Shown here: piece after piece, positions 1-10,049 of the stretch
Layout of the letters: every line of letters starts with the position of its first letter
How positions within the stretch are numbered: position 1 is the stretch's first letter
DNA from: Diacronema lutheri
Lineage: Eukaryota > Haptophyta > Pavlovophyceae > Pavlovales > Pavlovaceae
DNA length: 64,000 nucleotides
Assembly: GCA_019448385.1 (NCBI GenBank)
Contig: JAGTXO010000006.1
Coordinates: forward strand, 310,001 to 374,000
Reading direction: 5' to 3'
Notes under the pieces: model-generated
What the model was told of the DNA's origin: nothing
What the model saw: the letters and a program-made list of their open reading frames with translations, nothing else
Databases searched by the model: none
Translations under genes and position numbers: made by a program

Positions 1-2175
1 GAGCGCATCGTCAGAATGGCTGCGGCTCGTAGCAACAGCGCCGCTCAGCCCATCGCGCGCGTGTGCCGCATTGCCAACGCTGCGCACGCGCCCGTCTGCG
101 CTGCGCACGTGGCTGTGCGCCGCCGGCCAGACGCCCTCGCTCTCGCTTGAGGCGTTGCGCGCAGCGCGCCCGCCCTTGCCGCCGAGCGCGACGACGCTGT
201 CGATGTCCACCGCCGACATCGCCTCCACCATCGCTCGGCCGGGGCTCGCGTCGTCGCCCGTCGGCGCGCCGGCGGCGCGTGCGTCCGTCGCGGGCGCAAC
301 CGTAACCACCGCGGCGGTCGGCTGAGCGCGTCGCGCCGACGGCTCAGTGGGCGCGTGGCGCGGCGAGGTGAGGGAGGCGGACGCGCCCGTCGAGCGGGAC
401 GTCGGCATCGGCTGACGCCTCGCCGAGCTGCCGCGCGCCAACGAACGCGGCGAGTCAGCGAAGGCCGCGCCCGCATCAGCACCGGGCCCCGCGCGCGCTC
501 GCAGAAGGGCGTCGGCCGCGCCGCCGCTCAGGCTGTGCGGGTACCTGCCGGACGGCTTGGCGCGCGCGAGGCTCGCGTCCCCACCGCCGCCGCGCGCGCC
601 AGCTGGCGACGAGCCCGCGCTGGGCCCGCCCCACTGCGTGCGCGCGGGCGGCGCGGGCGCTGCGCCGGGAAGTGAAATCGACGGGTCGTGCGATGAGCGC
701 CACACCTGCCGCTCGTGCGTGCCGCGCAGCTCGGCGGGCTGACGGTCGGCAAAGCCACGCAGGTCAAAGCGCTTGTGCTGCAGCTCGCCGAATTCGGCGG
801 AACGTGCGCCCACGCCGCCGAGCGCACCGCCGAGCGTGCCGCCGAGTGCATCGCCGGCCGTCGCAGCCGCTGCCTCGATGCCGCACGCGGCCGGGTCGCG
901 CGAGAGCCGCGCGGACGAGGCGCGCCCCGCGCCGGACGCGCCAGCCGTTGGCGCGCGCCGCTTGCTCTGCAGCTGCAGCTCGTCGTGCGCGGGTTTGGCG
1001 GCCATGCTGCCGGCCGCACCGCTCGCGCCGGGCTCGCCGCCGCGCGCCTCGCCGCCCAGCAGCGCGCGCATCTGCGCGCTCGAGCGCTGCGCGCCGCGGC
1101 GCGGCGAGAGCGAGAGGCGCGCAGCGGCGGACGTGGCGGCGGTCTCGTCGTCCACCCACGCCGTTTCGCCCCCCTCCCACGGCGCGCGCCGCTCGGCCGC
1201 GCGCAGCTCAGCGAGTGCGCGACCGCCGCCCTCACCGCCGCCCTCACCGCCGCCCTCACCGCCGCCCCCACCGCCGCCCTCGCCGCCGCGGTGCTCGATC
1301 CACACGTCGCCCGCCGCGCGGAGCTCACGGCTGGCCGCCTCGCTTAGCGGCCGTGCGCGCGGTCGATTGGCCGCGCGCGCCGCCCTGCCCTTGCCGCCGC
1401 GCCATGCCGTCCGCTCGGCGCTCGCCCGCGCGTGAAAAGGCGCCACGCCGCCTGCCGCCTCAACTTCGCCGTGCCGCGCGGGCGGCCAAGGGCGCGCGCG
1501 CTGGCCGCGCGAGCCGTCGGCGCGCGGCAATTCGCCTATCACCTGTGCGTCTGCCTCGCCGCCGTCTGGCGGCGCGTCGGGCGGGCGCAGCGCGTGCACG
1601 CGCTCGTCGAGGAAGTTTCCGAGGGAGTGGACGAGCTCGAGGGCGCCCAGCCGTCTGCCCGAGCCAGCGCCTTTGCGCGTGCGCGGCTTCGGCGCCGACT
1701 CGGCGCGCGTGAGCCGCTTGTCGAAGGACGGCCGCGTGCTCGGCGGCGCACGCGCCGACGCCACCGCCGCGCCCGCGTCCGCGTCCGCGCCGGTGCGCGC
1801 GGCTGCGTCGCCATACGAATCGTACGGCACGCGCAGCATCGAGCGCGTGGGCGCGGGCGAGCGCGCGTCGGCGCGCGGCTCAACGGCATAAGGCGCGCCC
1901 AAGCTCGGCGTGCGAGCGCGCCGCCTGCTTGGCGCCGCGTCGTCCATCGCGATCCCCGCGTTCCTGAGCGCGCGCGGGCTGCCGGACCGTTCGCCAGCCG
2001 GCATCCGGTCGAGCGGCGACAGGGGCGGCGCGGGCTCGCGCCAATAGCCGTACAGGAGCACTGGCCCGGGTGGCGGCGAGGCGGAGGCCGACGGTGCGGG
2101 CTCAGGTCGCGGCGACGGTGGCGGGGTGAATGCGCGCGCGTACGTCGTCTGCCACGGCGTCCCGTCGCGCATCAT
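1..2175 (-). CDS. Hypothetical low-complexity protein, 3' end beyond the window
   Basis: Reading the minus strand from the ATG at 2175, I find one frame open for all 725 codons to the left edge, with no stop and strong G/C third positions; the carboxyl end is therefore missing. The protein is rich in Ala, Arg, Gly, Ser and Pro and looks mostly disordered. It contains a Gly-Gly-Gly-Glu type tandem repeat (bases about 1223-1287) and one more ordered helical stretch around residues 185-205 (LELVHSLGNFLDERVHAL). I recognise no family, membrane segment or signal peptide. The start was chosen as the first of two adjacent ATGs. It is divergent from the nucleoside-hydrolase fusion gene, with only 107 bp between start codons, which may be a shared promoter. 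GC-rich DNA can keep long false frames open, so confidence is moderate. Confidence 0.55.
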   Translation of the reverse strand, partial: MMRDGTPWQTTYARAFTPPPSPRPEPAPSASASPPPGPVLLYGYWREPAPPLSPLDRMPAGERSGSPRALRNAGIAMDDAAPSRRRARTPSLGAPYAVEPRADARSPAPTRSMLRVPYDSYGDAAARTGADADAGAAVASARAPPSTRPSFDKRLTRAESAPKPRTRKGAGSGRRLGALELVHSLGNFLDERVHALRPPDAPPDGGEADAQVIGELPRADGSRGQRARPWPPARHGEVEAAGGVAPFHARASAERTAWRGGKGRAARAANRPRARPLSEAASRELRAAGDVWIEHRGGEGGGGGGGEGGGEGGGEGGGRALAELRAAERRAPWEGGETAWVDDETAATSAAARLSLSPRRGAQRSSAQMRALLGGEARGGEPGASGAAGSMAAKPAHDELQLQSKRRAPTAGASGAGRASSARLSRDPAACGIEAAAATAGDALGGTLGGALGGVGARSAEFGELQHKRFDLRGFADRQPAELRGTHERQVWRSSHDPSISLPGAAPAPPARTQWGGPSAGSSPAGARGGGGDASLARAKPSGRYPHSLSGGAADALLRARAGPGADAGAAFADSPRSLARGSSARRQPMPTSRSTGASASLTSPRHAPTEPSARRAQPTAAVVTVAPATDARAAGAPTGDDASPGRAMVEAMSAVDIDSVVALGGKGGRAARNASSESEGVWPAAHSHVRSADGRVRSVGNAAHARDGLSGAVATSRSHSDDAL

Positions 2176-2282
2176 CGTTCCCCGAAAGTGGCGCACACGG
2201 GCGTAACGACCTGCACATTTTGTTAGCTGGTACTTATTGCAGCTGTTCGAGGAGCCCCTGGCCGAGGGTGCGTCCCCTCCAC

Positions 2283-5200
2283 ATGGCGAAGCTCTTCGCG
2301 GCCGTCGCGCCGGGCACGCCGCTGCGCAGTGGCGCGCTCGAGTCGCCGCCGTCGTCGTTGTGCTCGCGCTCCGAGCGCGACACACGCGGCAGCGCCGCGC
2401 GCGGCGCCCGCGACGGCGCCGCCGCTGCGCCCGAGGCGGAGCTGCACGGCGCGTCACGCTCGTCGCCGCTGCTCCACACGGAGCACGAGTTCCTGACGAT
2501 CGCGCAGAATCGGCGCGAGCTGGGCGCGTCGACACAGCACGGCATGCTGCGTACGTGCCGCTCGCGCCTGCGCCGCCGCCTGATCGGCGCCATGTCGCGC
2601 GGCGCCGCGCGCGCGGCGGCTGCGTCGGACGCCTTCTCGCACCTGCGGCCGCGCACCGTCGTGCTCATCACCGACCCGGGGCCCGATCCGGACGACACGA
2701 TCGCGCTGCTGCTCGCGACGAGCCTCCACCTGCAGGAGCGCATCGTCCTCGCCGCCGTCATTTGCAACGGCGGCGGCGTTCACCCGCTGACGGGCCTGAA
2801 AGAGTCGCGCAACCGCGCGGCGCTCGCGCGCTCCATCCTCGACTACTTCGACCTGCGCGACATCCCGGTGGGGATTGGGCACCAGACGGGGACAGATCAC
2901 CGCCCGCTGCAGCACGAGTACGCGTTCCCCGGCTACGCCAAAGTGGACGACGCGCGCCTCACCGACGCGCAGGCGCTGCTCGCGGAGACCCTCCGCTCCG
3001 TCGCGCCGCGCTCCCTCACCGTCGTCGTGCTCTCGGCGCTCTCGGACGTGGCGGCGCTCGTGCGCGCGCACGCGGAGCTGGTCGCGAGCAAGGTCGAGTG
3101 CATCTCCGTGATGGGCGGCGTCGAGCTCGAGCCCGACGGCGCCGTGCGCATGGCGGCCGCGCCCGTCTTCCTCCGGCCCGACCAGGCGGCCAACAACCTT
3201 TTCGACATGGAGGCCGCGGCGCACGTCTACTCGTGGTGCGTCGCGAACGGCGTGCCGCTTCGCGTGGTCTCGCGCGCCGCCGTGCCCAACATCCCGATGC
3301 GCATCGTGCGCGCCTTTGCGAGCAACAACCCGCACGACCCGGTGCTGCGCTACTTGAAGAACGCGTCCGAGCTTGGCCTCGTTGGCCTGTGGCGGCGCAT
3401 CTGCCGCGGCGAGGTGCCCAATCGCGACCGGCGTTGGTTCTTCCTCACCTTCTGCGGCGTCTCGCCCGCCGAGTACGAGTCGCTCCGCGCCGACGAGCTC
3501 GGCGAGAACTTCCCGATCGCGCGGCGGCTCGACGGCACGGTCAAGTCGTACGACGTCGTCGCGCTCCTCCTCGCGCTGCACGACCCGGCGGACGAAGGGC
3601 AGGAGCTCTTCGCGTTCGAGCAGGCGTGCGTGCGAATCGACGCGCAGCCCAAGCGCCCACCCGTCGATCATTATTTCTTTGTGCAGCCCACCCACCTCGC
3701 GCCGTCAAACATTGTGATCGAGCACTTGACGCTCGTGTACACGTTCGTCGTCTCGCTCGGCAAGTGGTCGGTGCAGGCGCGGCTGCAGCAGGCGCGGCAG
3801 GTGCTCGCGGAGAGCGGCGCGATGCTCAAGCACCTCATCCGGCAGGGCCACAACGGCTGGGTCATGTGCGGCACGCCGTGCATCGTGAACGCGCGCGAGT
3901 GCATCTGCTCGGGCTCATTTGATGGCACGGTCCGGCTATGGGACGTGTGGACGGGCGCATGCGTCAAGGTGCTCAACCAGGGCGCGCCGAGGCTGCCGGG
4001 CGCGCCCGCGTTGAGCGCGTCCGACGAGCCGAGCCCGCCCGTCGCCGGCTCGCCCGGCCCAGCCGCGGCCGCGCCGGCGGCCGGCGCGCGCCGCTCGACG
4101 CTCGGCGCGCTGCGCGCGTGCGTCGGCCTCGGCGCGGCGCCGCCGAGCGTCGCGGTGCCCGAGCCGACGCCGATCGCAAGCATCGCCAAGTCGCCCTCGC
4201 GAGCGGACACCGATGCATCGCTCTTCTTCTACGGGCTGAACAACGGCAGCGTGCAGGTGTGGAACGTGCACGACGATGGCGAGACCTCTGTCCTCGTGCT
4301 GCGCGACGAGCACCACGCACATCCGAGCCAGGTGACGGCGCTGCTGCTTGTCGATGCGGACCAGTCGCTGCTCTCGGCGGGAGGCTCGGACGACAACGAC
4401 CGCAGCGGCGGCCTCAACGAGGTGCTCCAGTGGAACCTCAAGTTCTCAATCGTCGTCGCCAGGTACCGCGCACACACCAAATGGATCCGCTCGCTCGTCG
4501 GCTCGGCGGACGGGCGCACCTTCTACTCGTGCTCCAACGACGGCACGGTCTGCCGGTGGCCCGTTCTGCCGACGAGCACGCGCGTCGCGCGCGCCGCCGC
4601 CGTGATCTCACCCGAGCTCGTCATCAGGCCGCGGCCCGTGCCGTACCTCGCAGTCCAGGACCCGTTGCGCAACGAGTGGATTCGTTCCATCGCGCTTACA
4701 GACTCGGGCCTTACGCTCTTCTCGGCGGGCAACGACCGGACGCTGCGCCGGTGGAACACGCAGACCGGCGAGCAGGAGAAGATTTACCTCGGCCACGAGA
4801 ACAAGCTTGCGTGCGTCGACGTGCCACGCGGGCCGCACCCTCTCTTCGTCTTCTCGGGCTCGAACGACGGTTTCATCTTCCAATGGTCGATCGCGCGCGC
4901 GCTCATTCTCACGAAGATCGAGTGCAGGACGGCGATCACGTTCATCAACCTCTCAACTGTGCGCGCGCGCGCGCGCGCGGCGCCGCCCGCCCCCGGGCAC
5001 GCGCGGCGCCGGCCTCAACGCTCACACGCGCGCGGCGTGCGCGAGCGTCGACGCGCCGATCCGGTGCGCGCAGGACAACCTGGTCTGCACGCACACGCGG
5101 CGCGAGGACGGCTCGATCGCGCAGGAGTTCCGCGTGCGGCTCTTCTCGGGCCATTACGACACGACGGTGCGCGCGCGCGCGCGCGCGCGCGGAGGCGTGC

Positions 5201-7516
5201 TCGGCGCTGGCTGACGGTTGGAGCTGCACGCGTGCGCGCGGCCGGCCGGCGCGTCAGGTGATGATGTGGGAGACGTCGGTCGTGGTCGACGAGCAGAACG
5301 AGCCCGGCTGCTCACAGCACGCGCACAGCGCGGGCGTACTCAACAGTGCGCGTATGTCGCTCTGCCCATCGCAGCATTCGCTCGGACGTTCATCGCCGCC
5401 CGCTGCGCGCGCCGCGCCGATGATGCCGGCGCTCGAGGGTGCGAGCAGCGCGGACCAGCTGCTGCCCTACACGAAGCGGCTCGCGCACGACGCGCCCAGA
5501 GGCGGCGCGGCCGCTCGCGCGGACGGCGATGGCGGCGACGTGCGGCCTTCATCGCGCAGATCGACCGCGCAGGTTGCGCCGCCGGGCGGCACGGACGCGC
5601 AGTGCAAGACGATGCCGCGCTCGTCGGCGGTCAAGTTCTCCAACATCCCGATCTCGAGCGTCCTCACTGCCACGCTCGACGGGCCGATGGTCACCTTCTC
5701 CGCTGTCCTCTACGCGCTCTCGCACGACACGTGGGACGCGACTGGCGTCGCCGCGATCCGGCGCGCGTCCGACGCGGTCATGTTTGGGATCGAGAACTTT
5801 GTGGGCGACTCGTCGGCCTTCTCGACGTTTCTGAGCATCTACTGGGTGATGGTCGGCTTCGCCGCCCTCTCGATCGTCCTGTTCGTCAGCCGCGCGCACG
5901 AGCGGTGCGTGTACGCGCTCCGTTCCGTCGAGACGGTGTACGACACGGACTACAAGAACAAGGGCGCAACCAAGGTGGTCTACTCGACGCGGTCGGGGCG
6001 CGCGCTCTACTACTTTGAGCGCTTCCTCGTCTACTTCATCATCATGCTCGGCGGCGCCGGCTTCTTCATGATCTCGCGCTACCTGCTCAAGGTGATCGAG
6101 TGTGTTGACGGCCAATGGGATCTGCAGCCGGCGCTGCCGTGCTACGCACCAGAGCACGTGCGCTACCTGATCATCTCGGGCGTGCTCTTCCCGTTTTACA
6201 TCGTCGTTGCCTGCCGCATGTCCGCCTCGTACAACGACGTGACCTACTTGTCGCAGGTGGAGGGCGCTCTGCCGCCGTCCTCGCGTAAGCTGCGCGAGCT
6301 CTTCACATTCTGGGGCTCGACGGTCGTCAAGCGCGCGGGCTGGTGGACGCGCCACCCGGTGCACGGGTGGAAGTTTGGGCTGACAGGTCGGCTGAGCATC
6401 CTCGTCAACTGGGTCGCCGACTTGCTCATCGAGCAGCAGGAGGAGATGCACGGCTCGTCGCGGTGGGTGTCTGTTGCTCTGTGGCTCTCGTCGGCGTTTC
6501 TGCTCTTGCGCTTGACGATCGCCTACCAGCCGATGGCCGAGCCCTTCTCGTGCAAGGTGCTCGTCGTCTTCCGCGGATTCATCGTCGTCGCGTACGTCGA
6601 GCTCGCCGTCATGAACGTGCTCAACATGGCGCTCGTTGCGGGCGGGCTGTACGGCGGTCGCGACGAATACCTCAACGCGTCGCGCAATATCTCGATGATC
6701 GTGTGGGCAGTCGCCACGCTCCTCTCCGTGCCGCTCCTGTGGCGCCTGGCGAGCCGGGTGCAGTGGGAGGCGGGCTCGCTCACCGCCAAGCAGCTCGCGT
6801 CGATGGACGAGCGGCGCACGCAGCTCAAGGCGACGGACGCGAACGGTGGCTCAGTCAGCCGACTGCTCCGCACCCGGATCGGCAGCGTGATCGGCGGCAC
6901 GCCGGGCCCCGGCGGCGACCGGCGGGTGAGCGACTTGCCAAACGCGTGCGGCGGCGGCGCGCTCGTCTCGCGCATCGCGCGCAAGGCCTCGCTCGGCGCA
7001 GCCATGAGCGCGTCGAGCGGCTCGAGCGCGCAGGTTGCGCCCCACCGCGCGCCGGCGCGTCCCGCGCGACAGAGCGACGCCGGGCGCGGCGCCGGGCGCG
7101 GCGCCTTTGACGCAGTGTCGCCGCAGCCATCCAGTGCGATCGCGCCCGCCTCGAGCTGCGCTGGTGGAATGCGCATCGTCGGCGCCGTGCCGCCCATCGC
7201 CAAGCTCGTCGCGCCCGAGGACGACGCCGGCACCGGCAAGCCGACGCCGACGCTCCCGTCGGCCGGCGCTCGCATAGGCCCGACCAGTGCGGAGCAGGGC
7301 AGCGTGGCGCAGCTGGGCGATGGCGGCGAGTTACAGGGCGAGGCAAACGCGGCGGACGCGACGGAGGCGCCGCCGCCGAACGCCGGGCCGCTGGACTCTG
7401 CTACCACCATCGCACAGCCGCCGCACACGCCATCAACACGGAGCGACGGCGAGGAGCGAGGCTCAGCCACGTCACCAAACGTCGCGAGGCGAGGCGAGCA
7501 CGCCGGTGCGGCGTAG
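2283..7516 (+). CDS. Nucleoside hydrolase-WD40-polytopic membrane fusion protein
   Basis: Three exons (2283-4958, 5074-5166, 5258-7516) give about 1675 residues. Both introns begin GTGCGCGCG, end CAG and restore frame exactly. Residues about 120-450 resemble inosine-uridine nucleoside hydrolases: the metal-binding DPG..DD motif appears as TDPGPDPDDTIALLLA, followed by VISVMGG-like and NNLFDMEAAAHV segments. Residues about 520-925 carry WD40 repeats ending in blades such as GSFDGTVRLWDV, SNDGTVCRWPV and GNDRTLRRWNT; a blade is completed across both introns (RLFSGHYDTT then VMMWETS). Residues about 1050-1430 hold about seven hydrophobic helices, and the last 240 are disordered. The ATG at 2283 was chosen because upstream codons look like promoter. 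Family knowledge: such hydrolases cleave ribonucleosides to base and ribose. Activity and location of this fusion are inferred, not shown. Confidence 0.85.
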
Positions 7517-7819: not shown

Positions 7820-9858
7820 CTAGTTGCCCTGCCAGCCCTTGCCCAGCTGCTGCGAGTCGTCGTACTGGATGCCGGCGTAGCCCATCGAGAAGATGCACGC
7901 GGTGAGGAGGCCCGCGACGATCATCGTGAAGATCCAGCCGAGCGCAGCCCTGCCGACAATCGACCAGTTGGTCGACGCAATACGACCCTCGGTGAGCGAC
8001 ACGCCGATAGTCGCGCCGACCTGGCAGTGCGTGGTCGAGAGCGGGATGCCGAAGCGGCTGCCGAGCAGGATGATGAACATCGAGCCGAGCTCGATGGCGA
8101 AGCCGCGCGACGGCGTCACCTTGGCGAGCTTGAGGCCGATCGCAAACATGATCTTGTCTGCGCGCCGCGCGCCCGGACCGAAGCGCAGGCAAAGGCACAC
8201 GCAACACGCCCAAACGTAAGCGCGAGGAGGAGCGGGGCGCGCGCTGCCGCGCGCGGCGCCAAGAGGCGCAGAGGCGCACTGCGAGAGCGGCCGCAAGCGC
8301 GACTCACAGCCGTACAGGCCGAGGCCGACGACGATGCCGAGGCCGCCGATTGCGAGGATCCAGTACATGTCGGTGCCGACGTCGTTCTTCTTGCTGAACT
8401 TGCCGTTGTTCGAGTAGACGTACCAGCAGGCGGCAAACGGGCCGACCGCGTTGGCAACATCGTTGGCGCCGTGCGCAAACGAGTCAAAGCACGCGGTCAT
8501 GATCTGCATGTAGCGGAAGACGACCTGCGCGCGACGGGCCGGACAGAGGGCGGCATGGGCGGGTGGCGCGAGTCACGCGCTGTCGTGCGCACGGCGCGCG
8601 TTCGCCCGGCGCGCTCGGGCGCACCTCGGTCTTCTTGGGGAACTTCTCCGCGCTCGCGTGCATCTCGGAGACCTTGGCGCTCTCCGCGACGACCGCGTCC
8701 GTGTCCGTGTCGAGCAGCTTGGTGAGCCAGGCGAGCGCGCCCTTCTTTTCTGCCATGTCGTCGGGCATGTCGGTCGCAAGCTGCTCGGCCTTCACCGGCT
8801 CCTCGTCGCCATCCTCGGGCGTCGCGTCGATGGCCTTGCGGATGGTCGGGCGGAGCAGGAGCGAGAGAGCCGCGGCGACGATGCCCGCGCCGATCGAGAA
8901 GACGCAGAGCAGCCACAGGTCGTCGCCCTCGGCATCAAAGCCCCAGAGCGCGTTCACCTTCTTGGTGCCCTTGGCGATGATGTAGAAGCAGCACATCGCC
9001 ACCTGCGCACACGGATGCGGGCGCACGGCGTAGCGCACGCGCCTATCAGCCGGCGCGCCGCGCTGTGCTGTAGAACAACCGATCGGCTCGGCGCGCACAC
9101 GCGCACGCGCGCACAGTGAACGCGATGAGGATCGGGAAGAAGATGAACGCGCGCTCGGTCGAGTTGGCCGAGCGGAGCACGAACGTGCGGACGAAGAGGT
9201 AGACGCCGGCGGCGAAGATGCCGGAGAGCACGGGCGAGAAGACCCACGAGAGGACGATCGACGCGACGCCCTTGACGAACGGGAACTCAGACGACGGCGC
9301 GTTCCACACGACGCAGTCCGAGCCGACCGCAACGAGCGACATGCCGATGAGCGAGCCGATGACCGAATGCGTCGTCGAGACGGGGAGCTCGAGGTACGTG
9401 GCGATGAAGAGCCAGACGCCGGTGCAGAGGCACACCGAGCACATGCCCCACATGAGCACCGCCGGCATGTCGACGAAGCACTTGACGTCCGCAATGCTCG
9501 AGCGGATCGTGTCCGAGACGGACGCGCCGAGGAGGAGCGCGCCGGCAAACTCCATCACCGCCGCGATGCACATCGCGTTGCGGATGGTCAGCGCCTTGGA
9601 GCCGACCGACGTGGCGAACGCGTTGGCCACATCGTTCGCGCCGATGCCGAATGACGTGAAGAAGGAGAAGAGCGCGGCGAGCACGACGATCCACGTGTAC
9701 CTGCGCGCGCGGTGCGCGCGTGAGGCGCGCGTGCAGTTCGTGCGGCAAGTGCGGCACGTGAGGGGCCGAGCGCAGAGGCGCGTGCGTGCAGTGGCGTTGG
9801 TATGCGGCGGCGCGGCGTGGCCAGCCGCGTACTGCTGGTACACCGCGTCTGCGACCAT
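7820..9858 (-). CDS. PiT-family inorganic phosphate symporter, copy 1
   Basis: Five exons on the minus strand: 9833-9858, 9115-9700, 8625-9002, 8308-8524, 7820-8157, giving 514 residues. It belongs to the PHO4/PiT (Pho89/SLC20) family, which couples Na+ or H+ to phosphate uptake across a membrane. The two inverted-repeat signatures are present: GANDVANAFATSVGSKAL near residue 30 and GANDVANAVGPFAA near residue 345, each with a following PxSTTH motif (LPVSTTHSVIG, IPLSTTHCQVG). Helices flank a hydrophilic loop at about 250-330. Introns are 132, 112, 100 and 150 nt. The start MVADAVY is the only ATG conserved in all copies; an in-frame ATG at 9978 would add 40 residues. The coupling ion and membrane cannot be told from sequence. 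Confidence 0.93.
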
Positions 9859-10049
9859 GGTGACCTCGGCGGTGTTGACCTCGTCGGCGGTAACTCGGCG
9901 GAATGTGGTTTCCGGCCGCAATGCCCTTTCAGGACCTTTCCTGGAGTCGATTTCGTCGCCGACGAGATCTTTTGACAAATTTCGTTAGTTTTCGGCTCGT
10001 CGGCGCGATTTTGCAGGAGCATGTGATGAAGCGTTCCATGATTCGCAGA

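Follow-up and report, generated by a model that had tools for sequence, protein, structure and literature searches.

HopQ1-like proteins (HLPs) share the nucleoside hydrolase (NH) fold; most work on them concerns effectors that bacteria inject, such as XopQ of Xanthomonas and HopQ1 of Pseudomonas syringae, and their natural ligand is debated. They are marked by a DXXXDXDD motif, as opposed to the DXDXXXDD of the classical enzymes (PMC11685791, PMC6019455, PMC3608555). HopQ1 is reported neither to act on nor to bind standard nucleosides (PMC3608555) and is cited for in vitro hydrolysis of the cytokinin precursor iPRMP (PMC6019455), and XopQ is described as binding ADP-ribose in the NH pocket and as inactive on common nucleosides (review PMC8910321), and is cited for hydrolysis of 2',3'-cAMP/cGMP (PMC11685791, PMC9963460). 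Algae, haptophytes such as Emiliania huxleyi included, have already been reported to carry HLPs (PMC6019455). Here we describe a gene at 2283-7516 of a 64,000-nucleotide stretch of the haptophyte Diacronema lutheri (contig JAGTXO010000006.1, positions 310,001 to 374,000; hereafter the window), which is predicted to encode an HLP of 1,675 residues in which the NH fold is followed by a seven-bladed WD40 propeller and a membrane domain, an architecture that a search of openly licensed PMC papers did not turn up. The HLP domain family is known in algae; the fusion, judged from sequence comparisons, is real, recurrent and a matter of one clade, several members of which have lost the metal site. Among the relatives compared are the database proteins P0001 and P0002 and a second copy in the genome, on contig C6. 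The features of the gene are as follows.

2283..4958, plus strand: exon 1, encoding a disordered N-terminus, the HLP-type NH-fold domain, WD40 blades 1-6 and the first part of blade 7; supported by codon-position GC
2634..3752, plus strand: NH-fold (HopQ1-like) domain, residues 118-490, with PF01156 and XopQ structure matches
2673..2696, plus strand: metal-site motif DPGPDPDD (DXXXDXDD type), residues 131-138
3825..5284, plus strand: seven-bladed WD40 propeller, residues about 515-932, lying across both introns
4959..5073, plus strand: intron 1, 115 nucleotides, GT-AG, with a junction as long as in P0001 and P0002
5074..5166, plus strand: exon 2, part of WD blade 7
5167..5257, plus strand: intron 2, 91 nucleotides, GT-AG
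5258..7516, plus strand: exon 3, encoding the end of blade 7, a linker, the membrane domain, the disordered tail and the stop
5600..6763, plus strand: membrane domain, residues 1038-1425, with hydrophobic segments
6764..7513, plus strand: C-terminal tail, low-complexity, 18-28% identical to those of the C6 copy, P0001 and P0002

The NH-fold domain of the window protein matches PF01156 over residues 128-336 (E 7.3e-14; 52.6 bits against a cut-off of 34.2), but its closest solved structure is not a classical enzyme: residues 118-440 match XopQ with an E of 5.6e-27, about 310 residues aligning, and the best classical NH with an E of 0.034. The window stretch, ITDPGPDPDD, carries the DXXXDXDD calcium motif and lacks the classical DXDXXXDD; on visual inspection, Ile takes the place of the first Asp of DXD and there are two added residues. 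Accordingly, a classical inosine-uridine (IU) nucleoside hydrolase, with which the domain shares the overall fold and the Pfam match, is rejected on the basis of the site and the closest structure, and from these profile and structure matches we classify the domain as an HLP that is an IU nucleoside hydrolase at the level of the fold only. The initial annotation had described an IU nucleoside hydrolase-like domain with its metal site; the fold and the presence of a site hold, whereas the subtype is HopQ1/XopQ-like and the motif is not the classical one. In contrast to XopQ and HopQ1, the window domain belongs to an alga's own protein, in which it is joined to a WD40 and a membrane domain, and several of its relatives lack the metal site.

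The same annotation had proposed that a single spliced gene joins the three modules and that both introns keep the frame and complete a WD blade, and these points are confirmed as far as the nucleotide sequence and related proteins can do so: the three modules belong to one gene with one frame plan. A frame at 2130-5261 runs for 1,043 codons without a stop and holds the NH fold and six WD blades, and the module order recurs in relatives (see below). Both introns preserve the frame, and blade 7, which draws on all three exons, reads SGHYDTT followed directly by VMMWE once spliced. Twelve combinations were open when GT-AG splices were enumerated over chosen ranges; in the preferred one, the stretch from TFI to SGHYDTT has 38 residues, a length equal in P0001 and P0002. 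P0002 is a single listed protein spanning the whole region, and the listed P0001 carries 67 extra residues exactly at the position of intron 2, which we interpret as intron retention. The GC content of codon positions 1/2/3 amounts to 0.68/0.51/0.92 in exon 1, 0.61/0.45/0.97 in exon 2 and 0.64/0.54/0.89 in exon 3; the 153 bases preceding 2283 give 0.53/0.71/0.67. This pattern indicates that all three exons are coding in this frame and that the upstream bases are not.

The propeller is recognized by the WD40 profile PF00400 (E 8.7e-19, in four stretches of exon 1), so that both profile matches expected from the initial annotation were obtained. Seven blade motifs, as in WD40 propellers of the WDR5 type, lie at residues 544, 651, 709, 750, 815, 859 and 918; unlike WDR5, the window propeller has a long low-complexity insert after blade 1 and is preceded by an NH fold and followed by a membrane domain. 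In the C6 copy (C6:494900-501700, minus strand), the insert after WD blade 1 contains AHSDR repeated 16 times. The membrane domain shows seven hydrophobic segments on one scale and eight on another, six of them strong, so the earlier estimate of about seven helices is fair as an approximation; the long C-terminal tail that had also been noted is present and of low complexity. Neither Pfam at E up to 10 nor the PDB at E up to 5 gave a match to the membrane domain, and a Pfam search with exon 3 likewise gave none. A reading of the helices as similar to those of G protein-coupled receptors (GPCRs) was considered and is unsupported, as no receptor profile in Pfam matched at E up to 10.

The fusion is found in several other proteins. 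A search of 5.8 billion proteins with residues 118-440 (7,987 candidates scored; E up to 1e-3) matched eight, of which P0001, P0002 and P0003 share the order of NH, WD40 and membrane parts, P0003 ending within the membrane part; no WD40 domain is listed for the other five. An alignment-based search returned seven proteins and added P0009 and P0010, both shortened and both with NH and WD40 parts. P0010 is from Pavlovales sp. CCMP2436, so the NH and WD40 portion of the order sought in other algae is present there. The listed domains of three further proteins from this search (P0011-P0013) look like those of bacterial WD40 proteins. Because the alignment search missed four of its six own query rows (P0003, P0005, P0006 and P0008), our counts of relatives are lower bounds. 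With the membrane region of P0002 as the query (7,989 candidates scored), only P0001 and P0002 itself were recovered; P0003 was missed, so this search was not exhaustive.

In the D. lutheri assembly (43,492,796 bases, 103 contigs), a single further match to the membrane domain was obtained at E up to 1, with two candidates scored; it lies at C6:495951-497138, is 55% identical and adjoins another NH match. This C6 locus encodes NH and WD40 parts within a single open frame, and its membrane part lies downstream of them. Identity of the window protein to the C6 copy, P0001 and P0002 is 58-74% in the NH domain, 46-63% in the WD40 domain and 55-65% in the membrane domain, and 13-28% in the linker and tail; for P0003, the respective values are 45% (NH), 39% (WD40) and 35% (membrane).

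A tree of 27 NH domains, built without the partial P0009 and without L024b and L027, which are short or near-copies, places the six WD40-bearing rows on one side of a branch with support 99/96, and in a 25-row repeat that also omitted the divergent loci L011 and L025 the support of this branch is 98. Within the 27-row tree, the window protein pairs with P0001 (92/88) and the C6 copy with P0010 (83/89); these pairs suggest that the duplication predates the divergence of D. lutheri and CCMP2436.

The metal site is readable in six of the seven WD40-bearing proteins, P0009 starting past the motif. Of these six, four lack one or more of the site's four aspartates: one is replaced in P0002 and in P0010, a single one is left in the C6 copy and none in P0003. 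The motif is intact in 15 of the 18 rows of this genome that lack WD40, degenerate in two (L011 and L025) and interrupted at an exon boundary in one (L017), and it is intact in all five of P0004-P0008. The two divergent loci that have lost the motif, L011 and L025, are paired in the tree (98/95). Despite the loss of the Asp cluster, the C6 copy and P0003 keep an NN..D stretch and a C-terminal Asp, which, from NH enzymes, we take to be pocket positions. Their persistence favours a role in binding that is conserved across the WD40 clade and for which catalysis would be optional, and we infer that binding, rather than catalysis, may be what the clade conserves.

We propose, as a reading that we regard as about evenly balanced between right and wrong, that the gene product is a cytosol-facing membrane sensor or scaffold whose HopQ1-like domain binds a ribosyl nucleotide. 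The protein would sit in the membrane with its N-terminal side toward the cytosol; the HopQ1-like domain would bind a ribose-containing nucleotide, most likely one of the ADP-ribose kind or of the 2',3'-cyclic-nucleotide kind; the WD40 propeller would act as a scaffold that recruits partners; and the membrane domain, which has no recognized relatives, would anchor the protein or relay a signal. The initial annotation had offered a nucleoside-sensing receptor as one possibility; sensing is compatible with our data, with a ribosyl nucleotide more probable as the ligand than a nucleoside, and a GPCR-like receptor finds no support. Several observations weigh against the proposed sensor or scaffold. 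We infer the orientation, the ligand and the relay, the orientation from hydropathy only, and in P0001 a weak Ala/Gly-rich stretch at residues 31-49 passes the hydropathy cut. An AlphaFold2 model of the membrane domain, from a four-row alignment, has a mean predicted local distance difference test score (pLDDT) of 44.8, so that a relay role is a guess. P0003, one of the members with a lost site, is a long branch of unsure place in the 25-row repeat. Lastly, all four site aspartates are intact in the window protein and P0001, which may still be enzymes, and the reported hydrolysis of iPRMP by HopQ1 (PMC6019455) and of 2',3'-cAMP by XopQ (PMC11685791, PMC9963460) indicates that the fold can be catalytic.

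These last points would fit an active membrane-bound hydrolase that breaks down, in the cytosol, a nucleotide used in signalling, be it 2',3'-cAMP/cGMP, a derivative of ADP-ribose or a cytokinin-like nucleotide, the degenerate copies being regulatory relatives. We consider this rather unlikely, since four of the six readable clade members lack at least one site Asp and catalysis is reported for bacterial relatives only. The same site loss, carried furthest in P0003 (0/4) and the C6 copy (1/4), could be taken to mean that the NH fold is vestigial and structural and that the protein is a WD40 membrane scaffold needing no ligand; however, conservation of the NH domain is roughly on a par with that of the other modules, and other pocket positions remain in precisely these two proteins, which makes a ligand-free scaffold decidedly improbable.

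The nucleoside scavenger envisaged by the initial annotation, a membrane-anchored ectoenzyme, draws on the overall PF01156 match, but we rejected it because the site is of the HLP type, HopQ1 and XopQ are reported to be inactive on nucleosides, a simple hydropathy scan detects nothing signal-like at the N-terminus of the window protein, and the site has decayed in the clade; the last two points together render a scavenger acting on the outside very unlikely. A still slighter chance attaches to the wrong merging of two adjacent genes, or an assembly error. Two GC-rich introns lie at the junction and alternative splice combinations are also open there, but read-through of two genes was rejected on the grounds that P0002 is one listed protein over the junction, that P0001 is too, apart from its additional residues at intron 2, and that the same module order occurs at the C6 locus. 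A native HLP in an algal membrane protein offers a non-pathogen setting for tests of the ligand of this fold, and the clade provides a natural comparison set within one architecture: calcium site intact, one Asp changed and site gone.

The wider HLP family in this genome adds to the value of the native algal setting, as it includes paralogs with a TIR-like domain. The genome yields 41 matches to PF01156 and 60 to an exact DNA pattern of DxGPDxDD (reversed control, 0), pointing to a greatly expanded family, although not every pattern site is shown to be a gene. We examined the stronger half of the 41 matches (20 stretches) and the C6 copy (L031); the two strongest, L009 and L010, remained outside further analysis, and L023 (two near-copies of L022) outside the tables. 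Contig C34 (C34:277036-565239) holds a cluster of DIGPDPDD copies, one of which, L032, has a layout of NH, hydrophobic helices and TIR-like part. A scan of viral contigs confirmed none of 26 pattern stretches.

Eight loci could be read to the C-terminus in open frame (L012, L016, L017, L021, L024, L025, L026 and L032), and in these the NH domain is followed by hydrophobic helices and then by a C-terminal domain with a varied TIR-like pattern ([FYV]VHS..D, WLD, L..L.GP..LWCV.E). Proteins that combine NH, multiple helices and a TIR-like part, from the D. lutheri genome and Pavlovales sp. CCMP2436 (such as L012, L021 and P0006), resemble the window protein in having a related HLP domain and, in those read, membrane helices, and the rows without WD40 in the 25-row repeat are 35-49% identical to it over the aligned NH domain. 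They differ in that no WD40 is seen in them and in that the window gene lacks the TIR-like C-terminal domain; moreover, their helices have no detectable kinship with those of the window protein (hhalign E 0.34).

Assignment of the paralog C-terminus to the TIR domain is weak. A profile search gave TIR_2 at E 0.13 in P0007; P0004, P0005 and P0008 had no match to a TIR profile. In the genome, TIR_2 has seven matches, all of them away from known HLP loci. Profile matches of the TIR-like part in the PDB number four, of which three are SIGIRR/TLR chains (E about 1.4), and the best, BPSL2520 (E 0.4), is not named TIR. An AlphaFold2 model of P0006 (five rows) has a mean pLDDT of 44.5, with the TIR-like part below 60, and is too weak for the membrane and TIR-like parts to be used; its NH part, in which ten-residue blocks reach 88, matches XopQ first (E 3.5e-15, versus 7.1e-8 for a classical structure). 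The Glu of the WC..E motif, which is catalytic in plant TIRs, is kept in some paralog copies and replaced in others. In P0007, the TIR-like part precedes the NH domain, possibly through the merging of two tandem paralogs by gene prediction.

It is tempting to speculate, unlikely as we hold it to be, that pavlophytes possess a native membrane-bound signalling system based on ribosyl-nucleotide messengers, in which HLP, helices and TIR-like domain in one polypeptide join a possible maker with a reader or eraser. The WD40 branch would then be a dedicated reader or scaffold, its TIR-like part lost or never present and its hydrolase site lost in several members. If this is true, algae would natively possess the domain partnership that is mirrored when bacterial XopQ and HopQ1 counter TIR immunity in plants.

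Adjacent to the gene, at 7820-9990 on the minus strand, the window contains reading frames, apparently of a multi-exon gene, that resemble what we take, from the sequence, to be a PiT-type phosphate permease.

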